A DNA stretch of 64,000 bases from Lentilactobacillus parabuchneri DSM 5707 = NBRC 107865 (lineage in GTDB: Bacteria > Bacillota > Bacilli > Lactobacillales > Lactobacillaceae), in assembly GCF_001435315.1 (NCBI RefSeq), contig NZ_AZGK01000006.1:1-64000 (forward strand), written 5' to 3'. Both the position numbers and the translations under genes were made by a program. A model generated the notes under the pieces. It was not told the origin of the DNA. It did no database searches and saw only the letters and a list, made by a program, of their open reading frames with translations. Positions 20,208 through 57,410 of this stretch are shown one piece after another (the stretch's first letter is position 1; each line of letters starts with the position of its first letter).

Positions 20208-20242
20208 TATTTGTATTTTAAAATAAAGAAAGATGAGATGAC

Positions 20243-28847: not shown

Positions 28848-30899
28848 TCAAAGTTTATCAATCAGCTTTTCTCGTAATTTCTTTGCCAAATGGTCATCAG
28901 ACATTTCTCGAGATGTCGTCCAAAGCGTCATCACTCTGGCTTCCCCTGGAGTCTTGATGTAGTTTCGTTCCCAAGCATCCTCATCTTCTGTATCACCCAA
29001 GGTTCTTAGATAATGTCTTAAGAACTTTAGTTTGATTGCCGTCAAAGGCATATCGTCATAGCCATCATTTTTGTAGAAATCATACCATTTCGTGGACTTA
29101 TGATGATCCTGTGCAAAGACAATATCGCTCATGGCATGATATGCCTCATCAGCAAGCAAGAATGGCTTTAAATAATCATCATCTTTTTGAGCGGCCATTG
29201 ATAAATTGTATGCCTGAATAACCAAATGCATCGCATTTAAGCCATTTGCTTGATAAAGGACGCTCAAGTACAGATCACCATACAATGTTTTGGCATCCTG
29301 CTCACTTAAATCCAACATGAGCTTCTTAATATCTAGAACCAGTGATTGCCATTCTGGCAGCTTTGGTTCGATCAAGCCATCGATTTTTTTGACGGCTTCA
29401 GGTAGTGAAACATCACCGACAACCCAGCCTGTATCAGACATCTTTTCGCGGTGACCAACCCAAGCCTTAATGATTCTTCTAATCATAAATGGTGCAAATT
29501 CGTCGCCAGCGGTTTCATCTGAGTGGGAGCCATACTGAACAATTGCTTGCCAATAACGCTTGTACAGACTAACAATTTCTGCTTGATGACTGCCATAGTA
29601 GTTCGCCACGTAATCATCTAAAATTTGATCATTTGTCCGTGCTTGATAGCCATCAATCCAAGATTTAGCGGCCTCTCTCAAGTAAAGAACATGTGGCTTA
29701 ATGTTTCCGGTATTGACTAATTCAAGGGTATCAAAGTGTTTTTCGTGAGCCTTTGTCAGCTCTGATGAAACGAATTCCGGGCTATTGGATAATAATCCCA
29801 AGAAATTAGATGCCTGTAAATCATGGAACGCAACGTGATAATACAAGCCACGTTGACGATGATGTGGATTAGGAACATCAAGTAATGGCAATCTTGGATT
29901 ATCCAGGTTTTGCCGTCTTGAAACCAACTTACCATAACCACTGTCAGCCCAAATTTCAATCACGTCATCTGGCACTTTAATTAAGTCTTTGCGATACAGA
30001 CCAGCCAGTTCGCCATAGATGTTCAAAGCCATTGGGGCTTCAGGATCCAACTCCCTAACCATGTCATATTGCTCTTGAATAATGCCATTCACCACGTCAG
30101 CGATGGATTGGTCGTTCCATTCTCGACTATTGTCATCCTCACAGAACGGCTTGTCACCCTGGCCACGGAATCCCAGACTATAAATCGTTGGGGTCCCTTT
30201 TTGGTCCATGATGGCATCTCGCCAAAGTTTTCTGAATAGATCGGGATACTTAATAAATGATGCGGTTAGGTCTGGATATTCACGAGCAAACATCTTAGCA
30301 CCCAATGGTTCGGCATGATGTTGTGCAATTGCTAACCCAAACGACTTGGCAGGATTTCGATTAATCTGTGAGCTAACATCAGTTCCCGGAACGATCACGT
30401 TACAGCCGACTCTTAAAGCAGTTTCAAACACTCGGTTCCAAACGTATCGATCGGAGTCATGATCCTTCCAGCCGCGGAGCAACAGCTCATCGTTCACGAA
30501 CCAGCCACGGTACTTGGTGCGATAATCCGGAATATGAAGATCAAAATTTGTCCACTTGATCGATTTTTGAACTGACGGAACGGTATCCATCCAGTACCAA
30601 AAGTCATCAATCTTTAAAATGTTCCGAGAAACTGCTAAGGCGCCGTACATCACGCCGAGAGAAGTTTTTGCGGTAATGGTGATACGTGAATCAGTGGACT
30701 GATTAATTTGAAAGTCGTCACCCTCAACTGCCGCATGATCATCAACTGTTAAATAAATTTCGTTGTCGCTTTCTTTTTGGGTCGTCACTTTTTGAATATC
30801 TCGCTGCAAAATTTCCGTTGCGTTTTTAAGAATATTGTTGCGAAAATCTTCAGCTACGACTCGTGTTGCTTGCGAGATGATAAATTCTTTTTCAGGCAA
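28848..30899 (-). CDS. GH115-family alpha-glucuronidase (TTG start)
   Basis: A 683-residue cytoplasmic protein. The N-terminal alpha/beta domain is followed by YWMDTVPSVQK and DYRTKYRGWFVNDE, the signature region of GH115 enzymes, then the barrel with SLGFRGQGD, NIYGELAGLY and IEIWADSGYG. GH115 removes (4-O-methyl)glucuronic acid from xylan. It is shorter than many members and seems to lack their C-terminal beta domain. The start is a TTG behind AAAGGAAG. No signal peptide, so it acts on imported fragments. Confidence 0.85.
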   Translation of the reverse strand: MPEKEFIISQATRVVAEDFRNNILKNATEILQRDIQKVTTQKESDNEIYLTVDDHAAVEGDDFQINQSTDSRITITAKTSLGVMYGALAVSRNILKIDDFWYWMDTVPSVQKSIKWTNFDLHIPDYRTKYRGWFVNDELLLRGWKDHDSDRYVWNRVFETALRVGCNVIVPGTDVSSQINRNPAKSFGLAIAQHHAEPLGAKMFAREYPDLTASFIKYPDLFRKLWRDAIMDQKGTPTIYSLGFRGQGDKPFCEDDNSREWNDQSIADVVNGIIQEQYDMVRELDPEAPMALNIYGELAGLYRKDLIKVPDDVIEIWADSGYGKLVSRRQNLDNPRLPLLDVPNPHHRQRGLYYHVAFHDLQASNFLGLLSNSPEFVSSELTKAHEKHFDTLELVNTGNIKPHVLYLREAAKSWIDGYQARTNDQILDDYVANYYGSHQAEIVSLYKRYWQAIVQYGSHSDETAGDEFAPFMIRRIIKAWVGHREKMSDTGWVVGDVSLPEAVKKIDGLIEPKLPEWQSLVLDIKKLMLDLSEQDAKTLYGDLYLSVLYQANGLNAMHLVIQAYNLSMAAQKDDDYLKPFLLADEAYHAMSDIVFAQDHHKSTKWYDFYKNDGYDDMPLTAIKLKFLRHYLRTLGDTEDEDAWERNYIKTPGEARVMTLWTTSREMSDDHLAKKLREKLIDKL

Positions 30900-30931
30900 T
30901 TCGCTTCTTCCTTTCTAAGCTTACATTACGA

Positions 30932-31291
30932 TCAGTTATCCTTATTGCTTGGAACCCCAGCGACTGTTTGAAACACATCAGCTAATGACATGTTTTGATC
31001 CGCAAATTTCTTATTCAAAATCAGGGTTCGAAAATCCTCAATGGACATCTTCTCTTTTTCTTTGGTTGGCAGCGTCATTGGTGCGTTACCTGATGTCTGA
31101 TTCATACCGGTTGTCAACGAGATAATAATGCCATCACTGTTGTCAAGACGGACAACGTAATGTTCATAATATGACGGAATATCGTACGTTCCCGTTAATT
31201 CCTTGTGTGCTTTGAAATAATTGATAATAAACTCGTGGAAAGCTTTCTCGGATTTTAAGGATTCTTTCCATTCGTCATTAGATTCTGTCAT
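30932..31291 (-). CDS. Small unknown protein, family member b
   Basis: A 119-residue cytoplasmic protein. It has two paralogues in the window (31418 and 37125). Shared blocks are WKESL, a FxxFIxxYFKxHKxLTG segment, PSYYEHY, SIEDFRxLILxKKFAD and SLADVFQTVAGVP at the C-terminus. No known domain recognised. The ATG at 31291 follows AGAGGT; the longer frame adds eight codons without a site. It lies between the GPH symporter and GH115, in the same operon. Confidence 0.75.
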   Translation of the reverse strand: MTESNDEWKESLKSEKAFHEFIINYFKAHKELTGTYDIPSYYEHYVVRLDNSDGIIISLTTGMNQTSGNAPMTLPTKEKEKMSIEDFRTLILNKKFADQNMSLADVFQTVAGVPSNKDN

Positions 31292-31417
31292 TTGATTGAC
31301 CTCTTTTTCGTCCATTTAATTCTCAGTGAACATGGTCGGTCCACTGACAAAAAGAAACACCACACTAACAACATTCGTAAATGCAATTAATCTGATGTTA
31401 CTTTTTGACATCAAGCC

Positions 31418-31792
31418 TTAGTTATTATCGTCGTCACTCGCATCAGGGACACCAGCGACAGTTTGAAAGACGTCAGCCAATGACATGTCCTGGTCAGCGA
31501 ACTTCTTGTGCAGAATTAAATTCCGGAAGTCTTCGATTGACATGCTTTCCCTTTGTTTAAATGGCAGTGGTGCTGATACATTACCGCTCCCACCAGTTTG
31601 GTTCATACCGGTTACCAGTGTAATGACAATGCCATCGTGACTGTCCAGTGTAACCGTGTAGTGCTCATAATACGACGGAATATCGTAAGAGCCGGTCAAC
31701 TGCTTGTGTTCTTTGAAATAATTGGTAATCAAGTCTTTAAACGCATCCGGTGAGTTTAAAGCTTCTTTCCAGTCATTATTACTATTAGTCAT
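31418..31792 (-). CDS. Small unknown protein, family member a
   Basis: A 124-residue paralogue of the proteins at 30932 and 37125, sharing the same five conserved blocks and ending in an acidic tail (DASDDDNN). The conserved Tyr-rich PSYYEHY and the FRxLILHKKFAD helix are the most constant parts. AAAAGGGGG precedes the ATG. It is placed directly after the symporter (44 bp). No enzyme motif, membrane segment or signal is seen. Confidence 0.75.
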   Translation of the reverse strand: MTNSNNDWKEALNSPDAFKDLITNYFKEHKQLTGSYDIPSYYEHYTVTLDSHDGIVITLVTGMNQTGGSGNVSAPLPFKQRESMSIEDFRNLILHKKFADQDMSLADVFQTVAGVPDASDDDNN

Positions 31793-31836
31793 AATTATTT
31801 ACCCCCTTTTAGCTGTCTCAAATCATTCTTTAAAGC

Positions 31837-33432
31837 TTACGATAGCTTCTGGAATTTAGGATCATCATTCTTCTTCCAGAAATCAATGGAATCGTATTTC
31901 ACACCAGTTAAGTCTTCACAAACTTCCTTGGTATGTGGGTCAACATCTTTCATGCTGCCACCCTTTTGAAGACGACCCAATTCTTGAGCCAATACCTTAA
32001 AGGTCTTCTTACTCAAGTGGAATCTAGCAGCAAAGAACATTGCCAGCAGAATCATGAAACCAACACCGCCAGAAACGATGAAGATGATCATGTTAGTGGC
32101 ACTTGCCGGTTGGGCAACGGCACCACTTGCTGATTGACGGAAGTGGGCAAAATCAAGTAAGTAACCTGCCACAACTGAAGCCAAACCTTGACTAATTTGG
32201 TTAATGAAAGTCATAACTGAAGCGAACAAGCCGGCACGGTTTTTACCAGTTACCAACGTATCCAAATCAGGAATGAATGGGAAGACGTTCCATGGTGCGA
32301 AGTACAGGATGTACAAACCAACTTCGTAGAATGACATTCCGACAATCAACCAAACCATCATGTGGGCTGGGCGGGTAAAGGCAACGAATGCCCAGTTAGC
32401 GGCACTGATTAAAATCAGAGAGTAACCAAACAGGTAAAGTGAGCGGTAAGTAAATTTCGTAACCGCAAACCCAGCGATGATCGTAACTGGAATGGAAACG
32501 ATACTCAATGATTGTAAGAATCCTGATGTACTTGTAGACATCTTCAAAACATAAACAATGTAGTAAACAAACACTGTTGAGAACAAGATAGTTGCAAAGT
32601 ATGAACTTAAGTAGATCCCCATGTGAAGTCTGAAAGTCTTAATCTTAAATGTTGAGAAGTAGTTCTTCAATTCAGATTTCAAGTTTGGCTTTTCGCCATT
32701 ATTTTCTTCAAGGGCTTCTGCTTCCAACTTCTTGGCTTCAGCCTTGGTAACAAAATGCTCCCAAGTGGTGTGATAAGTGATCAGAACCAGGAAGAATGTG
32801 GCAACTGAGAAGATAACCTGCATCAAGATATATGGTTCTGGAGAAGTCTTAGGGAAGAACTTGAATAATTGAGCTGGCACAAATTGGGTTAACATTCCAC
32901 CTAATCCGGCAAGCACCATTCGAGTGGTCGACATCTTCGTACGCTCGTTGAAGTCCTTGGTCATTTCGTTTGGTAATGTCTCCCAAGGAATCTGTAGGGT
33001 TGACATCAAAACCGTCACGATCAGGTACGTAATTAAGTAGTACCAGAAGCTCATGCCGGCAACCCACATTGTGATCGCAACTAATACTGATGGTGCAGCG
33101 ATCAAAATGAAAATGTGACGACGACCAAACATTCGTCCGAGCTTATACTTGTAAATATTATCGGAAATATTTCCCATGACCAGTGAAACAATGGCATCGG
33201 CCACCCGGCCAATCAGGAAGATGGTGGCACCTTGACCGGCACTCAACCCGGCAAATGTCGTGTAGAAGAACATCAGCCAAGCACCAACTAATCCCTGCAT
33301 TGAAATACTGAAGAATGAGAAGACCCCAAACCCTAGTGATCGCCAAATTCCGATCTTCCCACGACTCTTATAAATTCGTTTGTTGGCATATTCATCCCAA
33401 CCGTCGTGGACAACTTGTTTTTGATTATCCAT
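31837..33432 (-). CDS. GPH-family glycoside/hexuronide:cation symporter
   Basis: A 531-residue transporter with twelve predicted helices. The N-terminal GFGVFSFFSISMQGLVGAW and the DAIVSLVMGNISDN loop are typical of the glycoside-pentoside-hexuronide:cation symporter family (XynB/UidB/MelB relatives). With GH115 and CE6 in the same operon it probably imports acidic xylo-oligosaccharides. A cre box overlaps its promoter. AGGAGGTTTCACG precedes the ATG. Confidence 0.88.
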   Translation of the reverse strand: MDNQKQVVHDGWDEYANKRIYKSRGKIGIWRSLGFGVFSFFSISMQGLVGAWLMFFYTTFAGLSAGQGATIFLIGRVADAIVSLVMGNISDNIYKYKLGRMFGRRHIFILIAAPSVLVAITMWVAGMSFWYYLITYLIVTVLMSTLQIPWETLPNEMTKDFNERTKMSTTRMVLAGLGGMLTQFVPAQLFKFFPKTSPEPYILMQVIFSVATFFLVLITYHTTWEHFVTKAEAKKLEAEALEENNGEKPNLKSELKNYFSTFKIKTFRLHMGIYLSSYFATILFSTVFVYYIVYVLKMSTSTSGFLQSLSIVSIPVTIIAGFAVTKFTYRSLYLFGYSLILISAANWAFVAFTRPAHMMVWLIVGMSFYEVGLYILYFAPWNVFPFIPDLDTLVTGKNRAGLFASVMTFINQISQGLASVVAGYLLDFAHFRQSASGAVAQPASATNMIIFIVSGGVGFMILLAMFFAARFHLSKKTFKVLAQELGRLQKGGSMKDVDPHTKEVCEDLTGVKYDSIDFWKKNDDPKFQKLS

Positions 33433-36789: not shown

Positions 36790-36883
36790 TTAACCACCTC
36801 TTTCAAAAATTTGAATTCTGTTAGTGTTATCGTCTTACAAAACAGTGTTCAAATCAAGCAAGGAGGAATCCTTTTATGCTTAA

Positions 36884-36895
36884 CTAACATATTAG
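36884..36895. promoter_or_regulatory. CTAACATATTAG motif, site 1
   Basis: A near-palindrome that differs by one base from the CTAATATATTAG operator at 50452. It occurs twice in the 335-bp region before the 37125 gene. The rest of 36790-37124 is AT-rich, with an isolated AAGGAGGAATCC at 36860 and no gene seen. Confidence 0.45.
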
Positions 36896-37056
36896 TCATT
36901 AATTGGTATCATTGATGCCGATTTAATCAAGATATCGATTTCAATTATAAAATATCGTTAAATCCAGTGTTGCCAACGTTTTCATAAGTATTTTCACTTG
37001 TTTTATTTTAAAAAGTGTTTAGAATGATAATTGAAGTAAGGAAGCAATACAAGCCT

Positions 37057-37068
37057 CTAACATATTAG
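37057..37068. promoter_or_regulatory. CTAACATATTAG motif, site 2
   Basis: Identical to site 1 and placed 56 bp before the start codon of the 37125 gene. It probably overlaps the transcript start or early leader. Confidence 0.45.
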
Positions 37069-37124
37069 TTTTAATTCCTTACCAGACTCTCTGACACTGC
37101 TTTGACTTGAAAGGAAGCTTTAAA

Positions 37125-37475
37125 ATGACAACTAAAGACTGGAAAGCATCACTTGAATCAAGCGACGCGTTTAACGATTTCATCACCGATTACTTCAAAG
37201 ACCACAAGCAATTAACCGGAGATTACGAAACCCCATCGTATTATGAGTACTACACCGTAACGCTGAACAGTAAGAAAGGACTGGTCATCACAATGACTAG
37301 TGCTGTTACCAGCGTTCCTAACGCCGAGGTTCCAACCATCCCATTCAAAAACGTTGAGATCATTTCTGTCGAAGAATTTCGTCAACTCATTCTTCACAAG
37401 AAGTTCGCAGATATGCATACATCCCTGGCCGACGTCTTTCAAACAGTCGCAGGCGTTCCCGGTAATTCCAAATAA
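37125..37475 (+). CDS. Small unknown protein, family member c
   Basis: A 116-residue paralogue of the two small proteins at 30932 and 31418. It keeps KDWKASLESSDAF, DYFKDHKQLTG, PSYYEYY, SVEEFRQLILHKKFAD and SLADVFQTVAGVPG, and differs mainly in the middle. It is transcribed alone, with AAAGGAAG before the ATG and a strong terminator after. Two CTAACATATTAG motifs upstream suggest link to the hexuronate regulon. Function unknown. Confidence 0.75.
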   Translation: MTTKDWKASLESSDAFNDFITDYFKDHKQLTGDYETPSYYEYYTVTLNSKKGLVITMTSAVTSVPNAEVPTIPFKNVEIISVEEFRQLILHKKFADMHTSLADVFQTVAGVPGNSK

Positions 37476-43640: not shown

Positions 43641-44591
43641 TTATTTTGCTTGATAAGTTCTTAATTCTGCCTGGGTTGGGTAACCATCGTTGTCCCCCGG
43701 CGCCTGAACCGCCAGCGATCCAATTGCATTGCCACGTAAAGCCGCCTGCTTATTGCTTAAGCCTTCCAATAATCCCGTAATGACGCCGACCGCAAATCCA
43801 TCACCGGCGCCGACTGTGTCGATCACTTTATCAACATGGTAACCGGCAACCATTGATCCTTGGCCACCTTTAACTTTCACGTAAGCGCCTTTTGACCCGA
43901 CTTTAACAATGACCGTGTCAGTATAATGACTATTACCCAAGTAAAAATCGGCGATCTTTTCCGGATCCCGACTGCCCATCAAAATTTCGCCTTCGTTCAC
44001 GCCGGGCAAAATAATGTTTGCTTCTGCAGCAAGGGCATTGATCGTTGAAACCATTTTTGCCTGTGATGACCAAAGCTGGGGTCTAAGATTTGGATCGAAT
44101 GTTGTTCGGATGGTTGAATGTTGATGAACTAATTCAATGAGATGTTTAAAGGCAACCAGTGCCTGCTCGGAAATTCCTGGGAAGATGCCTGACAAGTGAA
44201 CCATTTTAATACCATCAAAATCGATATTGTCGAGTGAAGCCTTATCAAAGTGAGCAGCTGCTGAATTTTTTCTGTAGTAAAAAATTCCAGGATCCCCCTT
44301 TGTTACCCGCTGCTTGAATTGCATCGCCGTCCAATAATCAGCGGTTGTATCAACATAATCCGTCCCAATATGATTTAAGCTGAGCTGTTGACTCACAAAA
44401 GCGCCAATTGGGTCCTCACCGAGGCGGGTAACGTACTCAGTGGAATGCCCTAATCTTGAAACGCCCACTGACACATTTACTTCGGCGCCCGCTAAGTACT
44501 TTTGAAAATGAGTTGCCTCGACTAAGGATTGATCTGCATCTTGCGACGCAAAAAGTCCAATTGGTTCACCAATGGTTAAAAATTCACTCAT
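43641..44591 (-). CDS. kdgK: 2-keto-3-deoxygluconate kinase
   Basis: A 316-residue PfkB-family kinase. It has TIGEPIGLF at the N-terminus, LAGAEVNVSVGVSRLG, FDPNLRPQLW, and DTVGAGDGFAVG with the catalytic Asp near residue 256. The pattern is typical KdgK, making KDPG from KDG and ATP. It is divergent from kdgA, sharing a control region that holds an ATTGATATATTAG operator and a cre box. The ATG at 44591 follows AGGAGGAGC. Confidence 0.88.
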   Translation of the reverse strand: MSEFLTIGEPIGLFASQDADQSLVEATHFQKYLAGAEVNVSVGVSRLGHSTEYVTRLGEDPIGAFVSQQLSLNHIGTDYVDTTADYWTAMQFKQRVTKGDPGIFYYRKNSAAAHFDKASLDNIDFDGIKMVHLSGIFPGISEQALVAFKHLIELVHQHSTIRTTFDPNLRPQLWSSQAKMVSTINALAAEANIILPGVNEGEILMGSRDPEKIADFYLGNSHYTDTVIVKVGSKGAYVKVKGGQGSMVAGYHVDKVIDTVGAGDGFAVGVITGLLEGLSNKQAALRGNAIGSLAVQAPGDNDGYPTQAELRTYQAK

Positions 44592-44619: not shown

Positions 44620-44685
44620 ATATTCCTCAAAAACAAGCCAAAGCATTGCAATCTCCCGAATAAAGTAATATATTAATATATGTAA

Positions 44686-44701
44686 TTGATATATTAGTAT
44701 T
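44686..44701 (+). promoter_or_regulatory. Candidate hexuronate-regulon operator (kdgA/kdgK)
   Basis: ATTGATATATTAGTAT; 15 of 16 bases equal the minus-strand site at 46720-46735. A second AT palindrome (TAATATATTA, 44667-44676) lies next to it. Confidence 0.6.
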
Positions 44702-44740: not shown

Positions 44741-45385
44741 ATGACTATGAATCGTGTTCAAAATCTTCAAAAGATTGTTGACGCCGGAATTATCGCCGTT
44801 GTTCGGGCAGATACTCCACAGAAGGCCGAAACCTTGAGTAAGGCAGCAATTAAAGGCGGTGTAATGGGAATTGAGTTAACCTTTACGGTTCCGCACGCTG
44901 ACCAAGTGATCGCCAAGCTTACTGAAGAACTGCCTGATGGCGTGATTGGTGCAGGAACTGTTTTGGATGTCACTTCAGCACGATTGGCAATGATGGCTGG
45001 GGCCGGATACATCGTCAGTCCAACATTTGATGCAGATATTGCCAAGTTATGTAACCTCTACCAGGTTCCCTACTTACCAGGTTGTAGCTCGATGACGGAA
45101 ATGCAACGCGCATTAGAAGGTGGATCAGACATTGTCAAATTATTCCCGGCAAGTGTTGCTGGCCCATCTATGATTAAAGCGGTAAAGGCACCGTTCCCAC
45201 AAATAAACATCATGCCAACTGGCGGTGTCAGCCTGGAAAACCTCGACCAGTGGTTTGCTGCAGGTGCTGTTTGTGTTGGTGCTGGTGGCAACTTGGTTGG
45301 CCCCGGTGAGACTGGCGATTACGATCAGGTTACTGAAAATGCCAAGAAGTATATCCAGAAATTAAACGAAATTAGACATCAATAA
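44741..45385 (+). CDS. kdgA: KDPG aldolase
   Basis: A 214-residue class I aldolase that splits KDPG to pyruvate and glyceraldehyde 3-phosphate. Schiff-base Lys133 is in DIVKLFPAS, the catalytic Glu45 in GIELTFTVP, and the phosphate-binding MPTGGVS follows. It is the last step of the glucuronate route, fed by UxuA and KdgK from the same neighbourhood. AAAGGAG precedes the ATG. Confidence 0.93.
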   Translation: MTMNRVQNLQKIVDAGIIAVVRADTPQKAETLSKAAIKGGVMGIELTFTVPHADQVIAKLTEELPDGVIGAGTVLDVTSARLAMMAGAGYIVSPTFDADIAKLCNLYQVPYLPGCSSMTEMQRALEGGSDIVKLFPASVAGPSMIKAVKAPFPQINIMPTGGVSLENLDQWFAAGAVCVGAGGNLVGPGETGDYDQVTENAKKYIQKLNEIRHQ

Positions 45386-45572: not shown

Positions 45573-46649
45573 TTATTTCTTTTCCAGTGCTTCCCACAAT
45601 CCAAGTAGATAAGTGATGCCTAGTGCCCGATCATATAGCCCATATCCTGGACGACCGTCTTCTCCCCAAATATTTCGACCGTGATCGGGACGAATATAGC
45701 CATCGTAATTCGTATCATGAAGTGCCTTCATGATTTCATACATATCCAATGAGCCCTCGCTGGATGGATGAGCAGATTCATGAAAGTCCCCCTGTTGGTT
45801 AACGAATTTAATATTTCGAACGTGCATAAATGGGACCCGGTCCTTTGGCACGAACTCGCGGATAATTGCTGGGAGATCGTTGTTTTGGTTTTCACCAAGG
45901 CTGCCCGTGCAAATTGTAAAACCATTATAACGAGATTCGTAGAGCTTTTCGATCCGCAACATGTCTTCTTCATTCTTAAAAATTCGTGGCAAACCAAATA
46001 ATGGCTTTGGCGGATCATCGGGATGCATCGCCATCCGGACATCATATTGCTCACAAACCGGAATGATGGCATCTAAGAAATACTTCAAGTTCTCAATAAG
46101 TTTGTCTTCATCAACATCTTGATAAGCGTCAAATAAGTCTTGTAGAGCAGAAAGTCGTTCAGGTTCCCACCCGGGTAATGAGAATCCATTGGAGCCGGAC
46201 TTCATGTGGGCCATCAAGGCTTCCGGATCTTGCGGCAGTTTATCTTGCTCATACATCATCACATTTGAACCATCGGCTAACTGATGATGTAAGTCTGTCC
46301 GCAGCCAATCAAAGACTGGCATAAAGTTATAGCAGATCACCTTAATGCCCGCCTTAGAGAGATTCTTGATTGTCTGAATATAGTTCTGAATATACTTATC
46401 GCGCGTCGGCAATCCAATTTTAATATCATCATGAATATTGACTGATTCAATTACTTCCAGCTTCAAGCCAGCATCAGTCACCTGTTTCTTAAGCGCATCA
46501 ATCTTGTCTTGGGGCCAAACATCCCCAACAGGAACATCAAATAACGCCCCAACCACTTGTTTTGTTTGGGGAATCTGCCTGATTTGAGAAAGCGAAATAT
46601 CATCATCCTTTTCTCCGAACCAGCGGAATCCCATTTTCAATTGTGCCAT
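45573..46649 (-). CDS. uxuA: Mannonate dehydratase, copy 2
   Basis: A 358-residue paralogue of the enzyme at 18993, with the same MGFRWFGEKDD, MAMHPDDPPKPLFGLPRI, TGSLGE, HVRNIKF, HESAH and RPDHGR segments. It is divergent from its own GntR regulator and preceded by a promoter with overlapping cre box and downstream operator. AAGGAGGAAG precedes the ATG. Given its place beside kdgA and kdgK, this is probably the main glucuronate-pathway copy. Confidence 0.94.
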   Translation of the reverse strand: MAQLKMGFRWFGEKDDDISLSQIRQIPQTKQVVGALFDVPVGDVWPQDKIDALKKQVTDAGLKLEVIESVNIHDDIKIGLPTRDKYIQNYIQTIKNLSKAGIKVICYNFMPVFDWLRTDLHHQLADGSNVMMYEQDKLPQDPEALMAHMKSGSNGFSLPGWEPERLSALQDLFDAYQDVDEDKLIENLKYFLDAIIPVCEQYDVRMAMHPDDPPKPLFGLPRIFKNEEDMLRIEKLYESRYNGFTICTGSLGENQNNDLPAIIREFVPKDRVPFMHVRNIKFVNQQGDFHESAHPSSEGSLDMYEIMKALHDTNYDGYIRPDHGRNIWGEDGRPGYGLYDRALGITYLLGLWEALEKK

Positions 46650-46719: not shown

Positions 46720-46735
46720 ATTCTAATATATCAAT
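46720..46735 (-). promoter_or_regulatory. Candidate hexuronate-regulon operator (uxuA copy 2)
   Basis: ATTGATATATTAGAAT on the minus strand, just after the -10 box of uxuA. The surrounding ATTGATA...TATCAAT (46714-46735) is also an inverted repeat. Confidence 0.65.
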
Positions 46736-46742
46736 CAATTAA

Positions 46743-46771
46743 AATTTACCACCTCATGTAACCGTTGTCAA
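46743..46771 (-). promoter_or_regulatory. uxuA (copy 2) promoter
   Basis: TTGACA (46766-46771), 17 bp, TAAATT (46743-46748) on the minus strand, with a cre box over the -35 end and the operator next to the -10. Confidence 0.7.
46757..46770. promoter_or_regulatory. cre box at the uxuA promoter
   Basis: TGTAACCGTTGTCA, differing by one base from the cre box at 50487. It overlaps the -35 element. Confidence 0.65.
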
Positions 46772-46864
46772 TGGTATGGTATGATTCAATTAAACAATTT
46801 AAAAATCAGCCGTTTCTTAGTGGTACAATAAGAGAATCGAATACAACGAAGAACGAGGTTTGCC

Positions 46865-47533
46865 ATGCAAAGTTTAAATGAAGTTGCTTACGAATCGATC
46901 TTAAATGACATCTTAAAATTAAAGTTTTTGCCCGGCGAAAAAATCCAGGACAAGACGCTCATGGAACAACTTAACATCAGCCGTACGCCCATCCGAGAGG
47001 CCATTTTGCGTTTAAAAAACGACGGCTTGATGATGACGGTTCCTCAAAGTGGCACTTACGTCACCAAAATCAGCCTCAGTAGTGCTTTAAATGCCCGCTT
47101 TGTTCGTCAAAGCGTCGAACGTAGCGTGGTTAGCGAGGCTGCCGGAAAAATGTCTAAATTAGATCTACTTGATAGCAGGACGATCATTAGCAAGCAACAG
47201 ATTGCTGCCGAGGAACAAAACGCCGTTGACTTCTTTTACTTGGATAATGACTTTCATAAGTTATTTTATGCTGCCACGGATCGGCTCCAAGTCTGGGATT
47301 GGTTGGAAAACTTATCATTGCAACTGGACCGTTATCGATTTTTGCGTATTCAGCAGACCAACATGCCATTAGACGAGCTCATCAAACAACACACTGAAAT
47401 ATTGGATGCTGTTGAGGCTCACGACATCAAAGTCGCCGAGAAAAAAGCCTTCAATCATTTGAATCTCATGTTATCTGAAAAAGATAAGTTAATTGCGCAA
47501 TTTCCTGATTATTTTGAAGCTGAACAAAAATAA
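46865..47533 (+). CDS. GntR-family regulator (FCD domain), copy 2, UxuR-like
   Basis: A 222-residue paralogue of the regulator at 20243. The winged helix contains NISRTPIREAILRL. The FCD domain has LDNDFHKLFY, IKQHTEILDAV and FNHLNLM, which carry the metal and ligand residues. It is divergent from uxuA copy 2. It is the most likely protein to bind the ATTGATATATTAG-type sites found at uxuA, kdgA/kdgK, the secreted glycosidase and the transporter. Confidence 0.86.
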   Translation: MQSLNEVAYESILNDILKLKFLPGEKIQDKTLMEQLNISRTPIREAILRLKNDGLMMTVPQSGTYVTKISLSSALNARFVRQSVERSVVSEAAGKMSKLDLLDSRTIISKQQIAAEEQNAVDFFYLDNDFHKLFYAATDRLQVWDWLENLSLQLDRYRFLRIQQTNMPLDELIKQHTEILDAVEAHDIKVAEKKAFNHLNLMLSEKDKLIAQFPDYFEAEQK

Positions 47534-47543
47534 GCTCAATATC

Positions 47544-47585
47544 AAAAACTCCTCAGCCCATTTTTGAGCCGAGGAGTTTTTTGTC
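47544..47585. terminator. Bidirectional terminator
   Basis: AAAACTCCTC/GAGGAGTTTT stem with T tracts on both strands, between the convergent gntR and glycosidase genes. Confidence 0.82.
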
Positions 47586-47591
47586 ACTCAT

Positions 47592-50377
47592 TTATTTGTG
47601 AATCACCATTGTTTTGCTGGCAGAAATATAATGCCCATTCGTTAACTGATAGCGTGTCGTAAGCTTGTATTTAACAACCCGCTTAACGGTTAAGCGAGTG
47701 CCTTTTTTATAATGCGCTGTTTTGTGCTTCAGACTAGCTGAGGTGTATGCATTAATGCCCTTCTTTGAAATAACAGAAATATGCTTGTTTTTGGGCATTG
47801 TTTGGTAATAGGCGTTAGACACATACTTCGAACTCGCAGTGATATAGCCCACCTTGCCATTTTTTAAACTGCGGACTTTATATCTGAGTGCCCCGTTATT
47901 TGCACGAGCGTATCCGAGAACAAGAAACTTGGGTCGATTAGTGCGCTTAGCTTGGGGAAATTTAGCAATTCGTTGTGACTTTTTGAAGTTAGCGGATTTG
48001 TACATGTATAAGCCCTTAGTCGCATAAACGACTGTATGTGTTTTCTTGGCATAATTGGGCAATCCAGTACTTCCGTTTGATGTTGACGGTGATGAAGGAT
48101 TCCAGTTGTTATTCGTCGTATCAGATGTCGTTGTCGAGTTGTCGGAATTACCGCCGTTATTGTTGTTACTTGGTGTTTGTGTCTTTTTTGAAACGTTGAC
48201 AACTGAATACTTCGGCACCGTAATCGTGTAAGATCCATCCGTATTCTTCTTGTAGGTGACATTTCCATCAGTTGAAATCCATTTATTTGACTGTGGTGTT
48301 TGGTACTGACCATAGTTCACAGAAGTAACCTTGCCAAAGTTTTTAAGGGTAAATGTGGCATCGGAATCCAGTGTACTTGCTAACACAATATCATCCTGGT
48401 CCCGTTGAATCGCAATTCCCATACTCTTATTAGTATCAGTATGGTAAGTCACATTGGTATCGTTGAGCTTCTTGTTAAGTGTCAGGTTATCCCCACTTGC
48501 AGGGACGGCATTGAAGAATAGAAGCTGTTTCCCCCGGCACCATCTGCTTGTTTGGTTGCCAAATCATACCCAATCTTATTAACAAAGTGGTTGACGTCTC
48601 GAATGGACTCAATCGCTTTTCCGCCATTGTACTCATGGGGTGTGAACGTCCCGTCGGAATTTACGCCATCGTATAGGTCAAATCCATCACCACTCTTAAA
48701 GTCGTAGTAGTTTCTGGTTGCACCCCCGGCAAGCGCCGTAATCGTTCTTAATCCGGCATCAAGTGGACTGTAGTTCCCTTTAGCCCAGCTCCAGCTATTT
48801 GCGCCCATTCCATCTTCCATGACCATTGGAATATTGTCACCATTGGCATATGGTTTTGAGTGACCATAATTATATAAATGTTGATAATCATATTGATAAG
48901 GATCAAGACCGACCGCGTCAAGATTGGTTGAAGATGACGAACGCTTATTTTCATTTAAAGCGATGATGGCATCGCCGCCATCCGACGCAGCGTTATTGAC
49001 TCGCGTCCATACCGGATAAGCTGAAGTTTTAACTGCAGCATCTAAATTATTGGTATAGTTCCACAAGGTCCAAGTGTTGAAGTCACTGCTACTCAAATTC
49101 ATCTTGCTTTTCAATGACAAACTGGGCTCTGTGTAAGACATCTTAATTGTTGGCTCATTTGGCATTTGAGCACCGATTACCGTATCAGTTGAACCATTCG
49201 CCGCGTTATTTTCGGCAACGTGGTTAAAGACATTCGAAACAGACTGGGCCTCTTGCTTCTGCAAATTTGCATCATTCTTATCTAGCCCGAATACATATTG
49301 TCCTGTCGTTGAGGTTGGGGCAGCTTTCGTAATGCTCGATTTACCATCTGAATTTTTTGAGATTGTGTAGTCGTGCATGACATAGTATGGAACCCGGTGT
49401 TCTGTCGCTTCTTTGGTGGTATCACTTCCGAACCACAGTAATTCCAACTTAATATCCGCATCTCTGGCAGCTTTGATAACTTGATCCAAATAGCTGTAAT
49501 CATAGTTACTCTTGCTGGATAAAGTCAGTTGCGGTGTTTCGTTCAATGATTTATTGAGAACTTTCTTACTGCCAATTTGTGAGCCACCACCCATTTCCAG
49601 TGTGGTTCCTTTTTGAGCTTGTAAAGCCAAAGTAACCTTACCGGCATTTTGACTGTTTACAAAATCAGTGACGTCAAAGTCATAATAATTTTCATCCTTA
49701 ATCGGGTCGTAACTAGGTGAAACGGAGATCGCCTTATGGCTGGTATCGCCCTTGAACGGAATCGTCTTCCAGGTGGAATCGTTAGACCAGTTATCATCCT
49801 TGTTGAGACCATACACATTTAAATTGGCAGTGGTGTTTGCTTTTGCATAAATTCGCAATTTAGCACCGTCGAGACCGCCTGCCTTGAATTTGCTTGAGTC
49901 AAGATTACTTAAATCGTATTTGAGGTAAACAAGTGATTGATTCGTGCCATCATTCGTCAAAGTGAACGGTGTTGAAGATTCGCTGAAATTCTTAGCCGCA
50001 TCATCGCCATTCTTAACATAAGCAACATCGGTCGGATTTAAAGACTTGTCTGGCTGGACGTCTGACCACAGAATTTGCGAGTTAACCACTGTGAAGCCGT
50101 CACTTTTTGCCTGCTTGAATGCATTACGAATATCGGTCATGTTATAACCATAATTGTCACGAAGCTTATCAATTCGAATCTGCACACCATTATAGAAAAA
50201 TGGCTGGTTATTAACTTCTAAAACCTGCTTCTTATCAAACCCGGATGTTGCAACCTTCGATATTGGGTTGTTTCCTTGGTTGGTTGCCGCTTTAGATGGG
50301 AAACTGGAAGTTGCTCCCAGTCCCAGTACCCCAGTAAGTGCAAGTACTGATAACACAAGATCTTTCTTGAAATTCAT
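47592..50377 (-). pseudogene. Secreted wall-anchored glycosidase split by a frameshift in a G5 tract
   Basis: Two consecutive frames make one gene. Part 1 (50377 to about 48482) has a signal peptide, a clan GH-A barrel resembling GH35/DUF5597-type enzymes (LELLWFGSD, GAQMPNEP, VMEDGMGANSW), and an inserted DNRLRE-type beta domain (about 130-270). It stops at 48482. Part 2 (to 47592), in another frame, has the C-terminal beta domain, an Asn/Ser/Thr linker and two SLAP-like wall-binding repeats. One extra G in the tract at 48531-48535 would join them as GGKQLLFFNAVPASGDNL, about 928 residues. It may be a mutation, phase variation or a sequence error. Confidence 0.8.
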
Positions 50378-50450
50378 TGCAATATCTCCTCGTAAAATAG
50401 TTTCCCCAAAATTGTGTATCCTTGTATTCACATGACCCTCATCATATCGT

Positions 50451-50466
50451 ACTAATATATTAGAAT
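50451..50466 (-). promoter_or_regulatory. Candidate hexuronate-regulon operator (secreted glycosidase)
   Basis: ACTAATATATTAGAAT on the plus strand, with perfect palindrome CTAATATATTAG (50452-50463). It shares ATATATTAGAATA with the uxuA site and lies directly after the -10 box. Confidence 0.65.
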
Positions 50467-50472
50467 ACAAGT

Positions 50473-50501
50473 ATTATAATTCCGTATGTAAGCGTTGTCA
50501 A
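50473..50501 (-). promoter_or_regulatory. Promoter of the secreted glycosidase
   Basis: A consensus promoter: TTGACA (50496-50501), 17 bp, TATAAT (50473-50478) on the minus strand. Confidence 0.85.
50487..50500. promoter_or_regulatory. cre box at the glycosidase promoter
   Basis: TGTAAGCGTTGTCA, a strong CcpA site overlapping the -35 box and spacer. Confidence 0.75.
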
Positions 50502-50509
50502 TGTGTATC

Positions 50510-50544
50510 AAAAAAATGGACCTCAGAAACATCTGAGATCCATT
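50510..50544 (-). terminator. Terminator of the DUF2264 gene
   Basis: AAATGGATCTCAGA pairs with TCTGAGGTCCATTT, then a T run on the minus strand. It makes the glycosidase a separate unit. Confidence 0.82.
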
Positions 50545-50561
50545 TACCCAAGTACGATGCT

Positions 50562-52448
50562 TTAAAATTCAGCCAACGTTACACTAGAGGTATGATTATT
50601 AGACGTAATCGTTAACTCGCGGCCATCCAATTTGACTTCTGGCACGACAATGTTGCCATCGGCATCCAGGCTCTCAAGCTCACGATCACCAAGGTACAGC
50701 GATACCAGAATGTACTTACCTGGCTCCAAGACGCCGGTTTGCAGCGGAATCTTAGTTTTGTTGAAATACAGGTTGGTATTTGGTTCTGGTGTTGATAACT
50801 CAGTTGTCAATTCCTTTGATAAGCCAACTAAACCGGTAATGCCAACTCTTGAATGATAGAAGACAGCGTTGTCCGCGCCAGTCTTCATTTCATATTCATC
50901 AGACGCCCCACTATCAGGCGCTGAGAAACTGCCCTCAGCCAAATGAAGGGGTCGACCAGTATTAACTTCATGAACTCTCACATGCCAAGGCATTGCCGGA
51001 ATAACAAAGTTCTTGATTTCGACATCGTCATACGGCTGCCAATCTGAGTAGACATAGTTATCGTGGATTGCATAGTCGTCATACTTAAAGGCCGTTTGCC
51101 AGAAGTTCTCGGATTCGGCAACTGCCAGTGTATTATCATAAGCCCCCTGTTTGAGGAGAACTGAGCCCTTAGGCGTACTAAAGCCAAAGGTAGTTGAGTA
51201 GACGTACTTCTCATATTTTGCCTCGCCATGGGCATGCTCATGCGAGTGTTGCCCCGCCGTAAACGATTGAACTTCCAACCCATTTTGACTGTGGGCAATC
51301 AACATTCTCGGTTCCGGCTGCTTCTTTAACGGTTCAAACTTAAAGTCGTCACTTTCTTTTGTGGTCCAGAACGGATCATCATCTGGCAACGCATAGAAAA
51401 TAAAGGTCTTTAAAGCCCAATAAGCGGATGCAGGGCCATTATAACCTTCCGCAAAGTTCATATTGGGATAGGCGTACCCAATCGGCATCAAGCCATCTGT
51501 CTGGAAAATATTCTGTTGGAACCACCAACGCAGGTTGTTCAACAGTAGGTGCTTAATGTCGCCCAGACTGTAGCCGTCAGGTAAATCAACGTGGGCATAT
51601 GCATAAGCTGCCCAAAACGCGGCTTGAGCAAACCGATAGTCTAAACTCCGACCGTATGGAAGCGCAGCACCATCCGCAGCAAACCAGTTGGCATAGCTGG
51701 GAACAAACGCCTTCGCCCGCTGCTTTAACAACTGGCTTTGCTTGTCATCAGTGTCTGCCAAACCAACTGTTAAAATTGTGAAGAACTGGTAGGCAAACGG
51801 GATGTAGTTATCAATCTGGTTAACGTAACCATCATAGGACCAACCATGACCTAAATAGTGCTTATTGGTAATCGCATAGTCAGCATCAATTAACGCCGAG
51901 TTATCCATGTAGCCGGTATCGTCAATAAATTGGTTCACCATTGCTCTGAAAAACAACCAGTTGGTCTTGGGAATCACTTTGTGGTTAACCTGATCCATCC
52001 ATTTGACGATTGTTTTTTGCTTAGGAACGGAAAGATTATCCCAGAAAGTTGCTTTGGTTTCGTATAGAAATGCCGTCAAGGCCCCCATTTCAACGAAGAC
52101 TTGGTCATAATCGCTCAGATCACCACCCCAATAATCGGGTGAGTCGGGATCAGTTCCGGCAATAATGCCTTCTGTTACCAATTCGTACCAGTCAGGACGT
52201 TCGTAGATTCGTTTGGGATCACTGAAGAATGGGCCAAGTCCCCAAAGTAAACGCATAAAGCCTTCAACTTCAGTCTTATCTTGAAGGTAAACGGCACCAC
52301 TGTCACTCATTCGAAAACGGCCTTTGCGTTTCTGCTGGGCCAAAACTTCCATTGCTGGGGCCAGGATATCGACCAAAGCCGCTTTAACATCCGCTTTGCT
52401 GCGCAACGGGTTATCCTTAATCTGCTCATTAAATAATTGACGTCTCAA
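50562..52448 (-). CDS. DUF2264 (GH154-type) protein, candidate beta-glucuronidase
   Basis: A 628-residue cytoplasmic protein. The N-terminal helical (alpha/alpha) domain with RMSDSGAVYLQ, RLLWGLGPFF, FVEMGALTAFLYETK and NWLFFRAMVNQF matches DUF2264. The C-terminal beta-sandwich carries the SHEHAHGEAKYEKYVYSTTFG region. My recollection is that CAZy places this family in GH154, with a characterised beta-glucuronidase. The context of galactosidase and glucuronate genes fits. The TTG at 52448 is preferred, with GAGGTG eight bases upstream; a GTG at 52460 overlaps that site. Confidence 0.75.
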   Translation of the reverse strand: MRRQLFNEQIKDNPLRSKADVKAALVDILAPAMEVLAQQKRKGRFRMSDSGAVYLQDKTEVEGFMRLLWGLGPFFSDPKRIYERPDWYELVTEGIIAGTDPDSPDYWGGDLSDYDQVFVEMGALTAFLYETKATFWDNLSVPKQKTIVKWMDQVNHKVIPKTNWLFFRAMVNQFIDDTGYMDNSALIDADYAITNKHYLGHGWSYDGYVNQIDNYIPFAYQFFTILTVGLADTDDKQSQLLKQRAKAFVPSYANWFAADGAALPYGRSLDYRFAQAAFWAAYAYAHVDLPDGYSLGDIKHLLLNNLRWWFQQNIFQTDGLMPIGYAYPNMNFAEGYNGPASAYWALKTFIFYALPDDDPFWTTKESDDFKFEPLKKQPEPRMLIAHSQNGLEVQSFTAGQHSHEHAHGEAKYEKYVYSTTFGFSTPKGSVLLKQGAYDNTLAVAESENFWQTAFKYDDYAIHDNYVYSDWQPYDDVEIKNFVIPAMPWHVRVHEVNTGRPLHLAEGSFSAPDSGASDEYEMKTGADNAVFYHSRVGITGLVGLSKELTTELSTPEPNTNLYFNKTKIPLQTGVLEPGKYILVSLYLGDRELESLDADGNIVVPEVKLDGRELTITSNNHTSSVTLAEF

Positions 52449-52476
52449 ATTTAAATTCACCTCATTAACTTGATTT

Positions 52477-52492
52477 TGAAAGCGCTTTTACA
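52477..52492. promoter_or_regulatory. cre box before the DUF2264 gene
   Basis: TGAAAGCGCTTTTACA, a strong CcpA site between the promoter region and the ribosome site. Confidence 0.75.
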
Positions 52493-52541
52493 ATACCTAG
52501 GATACTACTAATTTTACTAAAATACAATGTATCGTTAATTG

Positions 52542-52574
52542 AATTTACCAAAAATATAATATTTTTGGTAAATT
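52542..52574. promoter_or_regulatory. Perfect 33-bp palindrome, candidate operator
   Basis: 16 bases (AATTTACCAAAAATAT) and their exact reverse complement flank a single central A. It lies upstream of the DUF2264 gene and next to, but distinct from, the lacM terminator. A TTTACTAAA motif (52513-52521) lies nearby. Confidence 0.5.
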
Positions 52575-52609
52575 AAAAAGAGCCACGCATAATTGCAATG
52601 ACTCTTTTG
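52575..52609 (-). terminator. lacLM terminator
   Basis: AAAAGAGTCA and TGGCTCTTTT pair around a long loop, with a T run on the minus strand, 30 bp after lacM. Confidence 0.65.
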
Positions 52610-52638
52610 GGTAATCTCATCCGTCTGTGATGGAGAAG

Positions 52639-55480
<2,842 letters not shown>

Positions 55481-55507
55481 CTATTCTTCAATCTAAACAC
55501 TAATTAT

Positions 55508-55536
55508 AATGTAAGCGCTTTATTATATTTTGTCAA
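55508..55536 (-). promoter_or_regulatory. lacL promoter
   Basis: TTGACA (55531-55536), 17 bp, TACATT (55508-55513) on the minus strand. Confidence 0.7.
55510..55523. promoter_or_regulatory. cre box at the lacL promoter
   Basis: TGTAAGCGCTTTAT, a cre core with a weak right end. It overlaps the -10 box and spacer. Confidence 0.6.
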
Positions 55537-55562
55537 TAAACCTTTTAAACTTTCAATTAAAC

Positions 55563-55583
55563 ATTTAGTTGGTTTTACTAAAT
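55563..55583. promoter_or_regulatory. Inverted repeat upstream of lacL
   Basis: ATTTAGT and ACTAAAT separated by seven bases, about 27 bp before the lacL -35. TTTACTAAA or TTTAGTAAA also occurs at 52513, 57426 and 57595. Confidence 0.35.
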
Positions 55584-55592
55584 TTGCCCATA

Positions 55593-55624
55593 AAAAATCA
55601 GGCCCCAAACACGGGACCTGATTG
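55593..55624 (-). terminator. Terminator of the MFS transporter gene
   Basis: AATCAGGTCCC pairs with GGGGCCTGATT, then a T run on the minus strand. It separates the transporter from lacLM. The rest of 55625-55787 shows nothing clear. Confidence 0.8.
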
Positions 55625-55787
55625 TAGTAACGTCTTAGTTATTTTTCTTAGCCTTCTTAAGTAAAACTACCCAGCCGAAAAATATTCTAAGGTCGAAAAG
55701 CAAGCTGGTCAATTCTAAATTTTCGTTATCTAAATTTGAATTTAAGCGTTCTTTCCATAATGAAATGAACAACTTAATTAGCGGTAA

Positions 55788-57083
55788 TTACTTAACCCGC
55801 TTAATCATGGCGATCGAAACACCACCAATGAATTCCATTGCGATCGCGAAAACAAAGATTGCACCGTACCCAAAGGCTTCGACAATAGCAGATGCAACCA
55901 TGGCACCTAACATCTGGCCAAGCGTATTGGCCAAGTTAATGAGTCCTAGGTCTTTCCCGGCAGTATCCGATGATGGCAAAACGTCCATATTCAGCGCGCC
56001 ATCAACTGAGTTATATAATCCATTACCAAATGCTGCGATAACGGCATAAGCAAACATTGCCCATGGTTCCCGGACGAACAGTGGGAATAATGCTGCGGCC
56101 CCTAAAGCAAAGGTTGCAATTACAACTGGGGCTTTAACACGGCCGAGTTTATCAGCAAGCGGGCCACCAACCAATGCAAAGAAAACACCAATGAACAACA
56201 TGATCGAACTGAAGATTGAAATTGAGCCACCGGCTTGTTTCGTGTTTTGCCCAATATAATCAGTGAATAAAAATAGCAGAAACGTCGTTACGATGGTTGA
56301 TCCAACAACCATGAAAAACTTGCCAAAAAGTGCTAAATAAAAGTCACGAGCATCGTGCGTTGGGAAAAAGAAATATTTCTTCAAACTGTCCTTGTCGAAC
56401 TTAACTTTGGGTTCGTCCAATTTTCCCTTTTCTTGAATCAGTAACTCGTGGATAATGGCCAAGATAACCGTGCATCCAGCCATAAAATAAATACCGAACT
56501 TAACGTTGCCAAGAAATTGAGCAGCTAAGAGTGCGAACCCCTGCTGGGCGATGGTAAAACCAACCCCGTAGAAAGTCGAAACGGTCCCTCGCCATTTTGG
56601 CGCAACCCGATCGGAAATTTGCGGATAAATCGCGGCAGCAATTGCATTTTCAGCTGCGGCGGCGACAATCCAAATGGCAATGATCGCAACAATCGACTTC
56701 ATGTTAGCGATGACAACCAAAGAAATAGCAATTGCAATGGTTCCTAACACAATGTAGGGCTTCCGTTTACCAAACCGAGTCCGGGTGACATCTGATAATG
56801 CCCCGAAAAGTAAATTAGTAACCGCACCAACGATAGAAGCAACTGTCGCAAGAATTCCGACGGCCCAAACCTTATGTGCCGGATCCAACTGTGCAAACAA
56901 TTGTGGAATTAAAACACTTCGGGTCGATCCAATTGGACCATACCAGCAAAGTGGCGCTAAAAACATTGCGGATGAAATCATCCAGGGTAACTTCGGCTGT
57001 TCTTCATCCTTAATCTTAGCGTTAGTTACAACGCCAACTGATGTCTTAACTGCGTCTTTTTCTAAATCATCTTTTTTAGCCAT
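55788..57083 (-). CDS. MFS sugar transporter (SLC45/GPH-like)
   Basis: A 431-residue transporter with twelve predicted helices. The helix 2-3 loop GALSDVTRTRFGKRKPYI is the pattern of disaccharide:H+ symporters of the SLC45/GPH-like group. The long polar N-terminus (KKDDLEKDAVK) is cytoplasmic. A promoter with a cre box and a hexuronate-regulon operator lies about 300 bp upstream. It probably imports the galactoside or glucuronoside handled by lacLM and DUF2264. The ATG at 57083 follows GGGAGAG. Confidence 0.82.
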   Translation of the reverse strand: MAKKDDLEKDAVKTSVGVVTNAKIKDEEQPKLPWMISSAMFLAPLCWYGPIGSTRSVLIPQLFAQLDPAHKVWAVGILATVASIVGAVTNLLFGALSDVTRTRFGKRKPYIVLGTIAIAISLVVIANMKSIVAIIAIWIVAAAAENAIAAAIYPQISDRVAPKWRGTVSTFYGVGFTIAQQGFALLAAQFLGNVKFGIYFMAGCTVILAIIHELLIQEKGKLDEPKVKFDKDSLKKYFFFPTHDARDFYLALFGKFFMVVGSTIVTTFLLFLFTDYIGQNTKQAGGSISIFSSIMLFIGVFFALVGGPLADKLGRVKAPVVIATFALGAAALFPLFVREPWAMFAYAVIAAFGNGLYNSVDGALNMDVLPSSDTAGKDLGLINLANTLGQMLGAMVASAIVEAFGYGAIFVFAIAMEFIGGVSIAMIKRVK

Positions 57084-57215
57084 GACATTCTCTCCCAAAA
57101 TCAAAATTTTGTCTTAAACGTTTTTGAAATGTTCCTTACCACTTTGATTTTCTGTGCCCCACCTCCAGAATTCAAAACTCCAATGTAAAAGTGCTTACCC
57201 AACTTCGAACGGATA

Positions 57216-57229
57216 ATAAACCGCTTACA
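57216..57229. promoter_or_regulatory. cre-like box in the transporter leader
   Basis: ATAAACCGCTTACA, reverse complement TGTAAGCGGTTTAT. It lies in the approximately 290-base untranslated leader, where it could act as a roadblock. No gene is seen in 57084-57661; otherwise the stretch holds the promoter, operator and a terminator. Confidence 0.5.
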
Positions 57230-57359
57230 TTTGTCACCAAAATATGAAAGCATTCGAGGACGATTCGCTAAACCAACAAAATGTGATTTTCGTAATAAAT
57301 AGCTGTTCTCTCAATGTTACCATGAATAATCACCACTCTTTTTGACCGTCAACACTTGA

Positions 57360-57375
57360 ATACTTGTATATCAAT
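57360..57375 (-). promoter_or_regulatory. Candidate hexuronate-regulon operator (MFS transporter)
   Basis: ATTGATATACAAGTAT on the minus strand; 14 of 16 bases equal the kdgA site. It starts seven bases after the -10 box, at the expected transcript start. Confidence 0.6.
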
Positions 57376-57381
57376 GACTTT

Positions 57382-57410
57382 ATAATAGCTCTCCAAGAAA
57401 ACGCTGTCAA
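57382..57410 (-). promoter_or_regulatory. Promoter of the MFS transporter
   Basis: TTGACA (57405-57410), 17 bp, TATTAT (57382-57387) on the minus strand. Confidence 0.75.
57396..57409. promoter_or_regulatory. cre-like box at the transporter promoter
   Basis: AGAAAACGCTGTCA, reverse complement TGACAGCGTTTTCT; one mismatch at the end. It overlaps the -35 box. Confidence 0.55.

Follow-up and report, generated by a model that had tools for sequence, protein, structure and literature searches.

Known relatives of the system treated here include UxuR and ExuR of Escherichia coli, paralogous regulators of one pathway that combine GntR and FCD domains and act on hexuronate genes (PMC9369180); as for lactic acid bacteria, Table 2 of a comparative genomics study of the Lactobacillales lists a UxuR regulon for Streptococcaceae and Lactobacillaceae (PMC3616900). 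The same traits recur in a 64,000-nucleotide stretch of contig NZ_AZGK01000006.1 of Lentilactobacillus parabuchneri DSM 5707 (the window, part of what is called the source genome below), where the promoters of uxuA, of a putative secreted glycosidase and of a major facilitator superfamily (MFS) transporter share one arrangement of catabolite-responsive element (cre), -35 box, -10 box and operator, hereafter the cassette. There is good support for a hexuronate regulon whose operator is of the UxuR-like GntR/FCD type, and the regulated pathway is presumably the one tabulated in PMC3616900. Lactic acid bacteria are already known to have UxuR regulons; the new elements are the paralogues with a shared operator, the fixed cassette and a small protein. 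To our knowledge, none of the 15 Lactobacillaceae genomes tabulated by the Lactobacillales study is a Lentilactobacillus, and no study of the present regulon in this genus was found in the titles and abstract beginnings of the matches listed.

With respect to E. coli, the GntR/FCD regulator encoded next to uxuA (regulator A) differs in scoring far below the curated cut-offs (24.9 versus 442 bits for the UxuR equivalog NF007588, and 22 versus 396 bits for ExuR), and the operator, whose approximate form is CTRATATAYYAG, differs in lacking TKGT/ACMA boxes. Regarding catabolite repression, a box over the -35 with the cre consensus is shared with CcpA/cre systems, whereas the merging of cre and -35 into one cassette of fixed layout, in which a specific operator follows the -10, is a difference. 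FadR-subfamily operators are described as AT-rich palindromes with TKGT/ACMA boxes (PMC4494728); CTRATATAYYAG is likewise palindromic and AT-rich but has no constant GT/AC, and the MFS site, TTGATATACAA, comes nearest to such a box.

Architecture and rarity of the cassettes

The earlier note on this DNA had placed the three cassettes, and both their positions and their shared cre/-35/-10/operator design hold (Table 1). In a consensus scan from 43.5 to 58.0 kb, the promoters scored 10 (uxuA), 12 (glycosidase) and 11 (MFS) of 12, and the last two were the top two among 38 promoter-like sites. The box over the -35 fits TGWNANCGNTNWCA, the cre consensus, at 14 of 14 positions for uxuA and for the glycosidase and at 13 of 14 for the MFS transporter; a cre at the promoter, the mark of a CcpA regulon, is thus found at all three. 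The operators begin 6-7 bp behind the -10 in every case; that of the MFS transporter is the most divergent as a palindrome, and it does not match the search pattern WYTRATATAYYARW.

These sites are rare. In the window, the 16-mer ATTGATATATTAGTAT has eight matches with up to three mismatches against 0.94 expected, a number reached in none of 100 shuffles. Throughout the source genome (2,566,098 bases, 2.57 Mb, in 50 contigs), a composite pattern that joins cre/-35 to an operator core behind it, drawn up after the three sites had been viewed, occurs at exactly three places, the named promoters, and its reversed control at none. The palindrome WYTRATATAYYARW alone gives 16 rows, corresponding to 10 distinct places (control 1): three are in the window (kdgK/kdgA, uxuA and glycosidase), while contig C6 has two in its uxuB-uxaC cluster and one before a GPH transporter gene. 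Not counted as part of the regulon were C45:6978, which falls within a gene in a phage-like series, C10:23650 and C48:98383, with no evident link, and C1:162943, which precedes a LacI-family gene that by eye resembles ccpA. A two-mismatch match at C12:299616 (stretch L003) was taken as chance, as it adjoins repeats (L003:1530-1740) that resemble a CRISPR array.

Taken as a whole, these sites are probably the operators of UxuR-like GntR/FCD repressors that control a hexuronate regulon, with CcpA acting on the cre. From the position of the sites and the established behaviour of sites of this type, we infer a block of initiation and of the -35: when no hexuronate-derived signal is present, a repressor dimer would occupy the AT-rich palindrome behind the -10, over the transcription start, and block initiation, and binding of CcpA to the cre that overlies the -35 would keep the promoters off during the supply of preferred sugars; upon release of both, the transporter, the secreted glycosidase, the mannonate dehydratase (uxuA) and the 2-keto-3-deoxygluconate (KDG) kinase and aldolase would be made. 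The expected effector, by analogy with E. coli UxuR/ExuR, is a hexuronate intermediate. Such a system would probably switch the use of plant-derived uronides in silage and kefir lactobacilli.

Conservation in Lentilactobacillus and in other genera

A slightly loosened version of the composite was searched for in 24 genomes of the genus, and it returned 33 rows (two of which overlap), equal to 32 places in 15 genomes, with one match for the reversed control. Hexuronate-type genes follow 28 of the 32 places, namely uxuA (8), a second uxuA (2), the MFS transporter (9), the secreted glycosidase (3), a GPH transporter (3), uxuB (2) and a GH115 alpha-glucuronidase (1), the weakest assignments being the GH115 of G301 (51% identity), the glycosidase of G264 (56%) and the MFS of G301 (65% over 52 residues); one further place precedes a small-protein gene, those of G180 (contig C72) and G013 have no gene assignment, and that of G308 (contig C16) was not retrieved. 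Although the search pattern did not include the -10, the form T-A-N-N-N-T stands exactly 17 bp from the -35, with its first T in 32, its A in 31 and its last T in 30 of 32 rows, which with four duplicates represent the 28 assigned places, the other four being left out.

Alignments of the upstream regions gave a similar result. For uxuA (nine sequences, with the G303 row misplaced because the supplied stretch does not span its whole leader), conservation was 0.84 in the cre/-35 box, 0.87 in the operator and 0.57 elsewhere; for the MFS transporter (10 sequences), the values were 0.93, 0.83 and 0.51. The glycosidase gene is found at E <= 1e-40 in 3 of 301 family genomes, the source included, and the cassette precedes every copy. 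In the relatives, the sites are conserved upstream of orthologues of uxuA, MFS and glycosidase alike. G291 retains an A-type regulator and the cassette of uxuA, but its matches to uxuA and kdgA are only fragmentary (L065:11265-11951 and 16555-16810).

As for other genera, 35 loci around a relative of the regulator were examined outside Lentilactobacillus; in 21 of them the palindrome type is found in the 400 bp that precede the GntR gene, where 200 runs of a Markov control gave a mean of 0.56 and a largest value of 3; downstream of the gene it is found in three of the 35 (control 0.45). In G139, one locus with such sites joins uxaC, uxuB, uxuA, kdgK, kdgA, an A-type gntR, araC, and genes for a GPH transporter and a GH115-like protein (74% and 63% identity, respectively). 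In G132 and G049, from yet another genus (loci L119 and L115), the gene for a transporter 84% identical to the MFS protein diverges from that of a UxuR-like GntR protein, and the region between them holds two sites in G132 and one in G049. That the MFS transporter has a role with uronides is supported by the last two arrangements, together with the cassettes that precede GPH and GH115 genes in relatives.

These data bear on two other explanations of the boxes. One is that they are promoter-upkeep or melting sequences, given that they are AT-rich and adjoin the -10; such sequences would hardly be palindromic, fixed in place and limited genome-wide, nor would they be expected away from such a -10, as in the kdgK/kdgA tandem pair and in operator O1 of the small-protein gene (see below), or upstream of the GntR gene in the 21 family loci, and this explanation is hardly credible. 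The other is that a different regulator reads the sites, such as the AraC-type protein encoded at 33705, whose gene is divergent from that of the GPH transporter in the window and in G139; moreover, a separate box, TTTTAGTAAAA, lies upstream of the MFS -35. This too appears very unlikely: in many loci it is the GntR gene that the palindrome precedes, and among 29 stretches (L061-L088 and L105; stretches, not whole genomes) only that of G139 has an AraC relative, while most stretches with regulator A have the sites.

Candidate regulators

Regulator A contains both domains expected of the family (PF00392, 58.7 bits against a cut-off of 27; PF07729, 63.9 bits against 24.3), and uxuA, kdgK or kdgA accompany its relatives on 16 of the 20 stretches L061-L080 (not on L070, L073, L075 and L080). 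The source genome encodes two paralogues with 39% identity, B (at 20243, adjoining uxuA2) and C (on contig C6, adjoining uxuB-uxaC). In a midpoint-rooted tree of 70 relatives, A and B form one clade and C falls in a wider family clade; the same palindrome type is found in loci of all three clades.

Ten genomes of the genus have regulator A, and in nine of them it adjoins uxuA (G301 is the exception, with a GH115 gene in between); for this reason it appears the likeliest reader at the uxuA locus. The composite is present in 10 of 10 genomes with A and in 5 of 14 without it (Fisher p = 0.002, uncorrected for relatedness), where "without" means no match above 44% identity and includes three genomes less than 90% complete. 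When any paralogue at E <= 1e-40 is considered, the composite is found in 14 of 17 genomes that have one and in 1 of 7 that have none (p = 0.004), the same three incomplete genomes being among the seven.

The protein at 46865, i.e., regulator A, had been named in the earlier note as the one that binds these sites. This is plausible and probably too narrow, since there are two paralogues, the operator type is common to the family, and sites persist where A is missing; more than one paralogue probably acts on the regulon because the DNA-binding domains of B and C, like their sites, are related to those of A. A stronger version is that C or B reads the sites in the main, or that all three do so interchangeably, with A as one reader only. 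A, B and C have in common the RTPxRE segment of their DNA-binding domains, C-type loci carry CTGATATATCAG, which is close to the uxuA site TGATATATTAG, and in G304, where only C was found, the MFS operator is kept; in addition, of the eight genomes with dual operators before a small-protein gene, seven have C as placed by the tree (in the eighth, G301, a third relative was neither fetched nor classed) and six have A. On the other hand, the genus sites at the uxuB promoter of C are nearly always CTGATATATCAG, as opposed to the TTA half-sites at A loci, which suggests partly distinct operator preferences of A and C, and composite presence is complete, 10 of 10, in genomes with A. This version has a serious claim and falls a little short of an even chance. 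Three paralogous repressors with one operator type would offer a clean case for testing division of labour.

Several points weigh against UxuR-like repressors as readers of all these sites, or against A as the main one. The operator does not have the GT/AC boxes by which sites of the FadR subfamily are described; 4 of the 10 genome-wide WYTRATATAYYARW places have no evident hexuronate link; and in 14 of the 35 loci outside the genus the 400 bp that precede the GntR gene contain no palindrome match, with one instead before uxuB, uxaC or kdgA in some of these loci. In the window, the GPH/GH115 cluster has a weak site only, near 33558, the DUF2264 gene and lacLM, located between regulon genes, have no such operator in the upstream regions examined, and B's own promoter has no recognisable site. 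Finally, operators persist in genomes without A, before the MFS gene (G217, G304), the glycosidase and GPH genes (G264), uxuA2 (G233) and the small-protein gene (G217, G082). In the B/uxuA2 module (18993-20908), the operator that G233 and G264 have at this place is not recognisable in the source genome.

Regarding the C6 cluster, the genes behind its two operators are uxuB, uxaC, and, identified by eye, those of a 2-hydroxyacid dehydrogenase and a gluconate-kinase-like sugar kinase. In a silage metatranscriptome of Lentilactobacillus buchneri and L. hilgardii, uxaC, uxuB, gntK/idnK and gyaR were down together in the mixed inoculum, as the carbohydrate genes lowered together there (PMC10602787). 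That the genes of the C6 cluster correspond to these four is our own reading, and it bears on the cluster of paralogue C, not on A.

Genes of the regulon and a small-protein family

Table 1. Positions in the window of the cassettes, operators, regulators and genes discussed in the text.
Feature	Position	Strand	Details
uxuA promoter cassette	46720..46771	-	cre/-35 46771-46757; -10 TAAATT 46748-46743; TTGACA-17-TAAATT 46771-46743; operator ATTGATATATTAGAAT 46735-46720
Glycosidase promoter cassette	50451..50501	-	cre/-35; -10 TATAAT; TTGACA-17-TATAAT 50501-50473; operator ATTCTAATATATTAGT 50466-50451
MFS transporter promoter cassette	57360..57410	-	cre/-35; -10 TATTAT; TTGACA-17-TATTAT 57410-57382; operator ATTGATATACAAGTAT 57375-57360
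GntR/FCD regulator A, candidate reader	46865..47533	+	Pfam GntR and FCD over cut-offs
GntR/FCD paralogue B	20243..20908	+	divergent from uxuA2
kdgK/kdgA tandem operators	44664..44700		44664-44679 and 44685-44700, 21 bp apart
uxuA, mannonate dehydratase	45573..46649	-	cassette upstream
kdgK, PfkB-family 2-keto-3-deoxygluconate kinase	43641..44591	-	predicted function; below curated NCBIfam cut-offs
kdgA, KDPG/KHG aldolase	44741..45385	+	tandem operators upstream
Putative secreted glycosidase	48482..50377	-	CBM96, DUF4978, weak GH35-like match
MFS transporter	55788..57083	-	cassette upstream
uxuA2, second mannonate dehydratase	18993..20075	-	in module with paralogue B
GH115 alpha-glucuronidase cluster	28848..33432	-	GH115 28848-30899; small proteins 30941-31276 and 31439-31783; GPH 31837-33432
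116-amino acid protein of unknown function	37125..37475	+	dual operators upstream
Operator O1	36883..36896		ACTAACATATTAGT; upstream of small-protein gene
Operator O2	37056..37069		TCTAACATATTAGT; upstream of small-protein gene, 173 bp from O1

The regulon is larger than first described. A fourth operator copy had been reported between kdgK and kdgA; it is present, at 44685-44700, and does not follow the design of the other three, with a weak -35 and no cre over it. A second operator, missed earlier, lies 21 bp away, and both relatives that were examined, G278 and G180, have the same distance. The glycosidase and the transporter had been assigned to glucuronate metabolism: their place in a hexuronate regulon with a shared operator stands, while glucuronate as the substrate is suggested by the pathway genes only. 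The operators suggest roles for the secreted glycosidase and the MFS transporter as well as for a family of orphan small proteins.

The glycosidase misses the curated cut-off for GH35 beta-galactosidases (37.9 bits versus 500, over residues 288-408 only). Its frame ends at 48482, the C-terminal DUF5776 part of the region (47592-50377) being in another frame, and open frames in relatives reach 952 (G133) and 1000 (G264) amino acids; the break reflects either an interrupted gene or a sequencing error. As for the GPH and GH115 genes, the cassette precedes relatives of the former in G109, G278 and G264 and of the latter in G301. On contig C6, a GPH transporter gene is followed by an alpha-L-rhamnosidase-like gene (L081:2074-6413), their promoter has two UxuR-like sites, and paralogue C is in the same stretch.

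Searches of Pfam (E <= 0.001) and NCBIfam (E <= 1) gave no match for the 116-amino acid protein; its AlphaFold model (mean predicted local distance difference test, pLDDT, 79.9) has a mixed alpha/beta fold with no PDB match at E <= 0.001. Both operators upstream of its gene, O1 and O2, had been missed in the earlier note. The family, of about 116 amino acids, counts 73 copies in 17 of the 24 genus genomes; in the surroundings of 30 copies, 8 adjoin a GPH transporter gene (7 with GH115), 6 an MFS transporter gene and 1 uxuB, 8 are closest to the stand-alone copy, 4 are near an unrelated permease-like gene and 3 are elsewhere. These eight stand-alone copies, among them that of the source genome itself, have 62-100% identity to the latter, and all eight have two operators 172-174 bp apart; 15 of these match at 12 of 12 positions and one at 11 of 12, against 0.16 expected in Markov-shuffled upstream regions, a control that flatters the degenerate pattern because it was derived from the same sequences. 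Looping is offered as a possibility only, the 173-bp spacing not being a clear whole number of DNA turns. It is conceivable, if rather doubtful, that three UxuR-like repressors with differing preferences for one operator family act together with the small-protein family, some of whose genes sit between those of uronide transporters and alpha-glucuronidases, in one network, with a dual-operator repression loop around a new protein that assists uronide uptake or signals in it.

Another element common to several promoters, TTTTAGTAAAA or a near variant, is located at 52512-52522 (before the DUF2264 gene), at 55573-55583 (before lacL) and at 57425-57435 (before the MFS -35). Its column identity upstream of the MFS gene is 0.87 (10 sequences aligned), its count in the window is weak (8 versus 3.47 expected, with 3 of 100 shuffles reaching 8), and its reader is perhaps an AraC-type activator.

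The DUF2264 protein (50562-52460) resembles PDB entries 9o4u and 9nwf, named glucuronate dehydratase, and less so one named beta-galactosidase; its gene is not claimed for the regulon because its own upstream region has a cre-like box and no UxuR-like operator. The former family GH154 has been argued to consist of glucuronate dehydratases feeding GH88/GH105 enzymes (PMC12269599). On contig C12, the region 275-295 kb, with pectin/galacturonate-type genes (UxaC, KduI and GH88-family), is not claimed either, as its intergenic sites, one with two mismatches and three with three, are unconvincing. The same contig encodes two GH88-family proteins and a KduI-like protein, and a second route to KDG is therefore possible.

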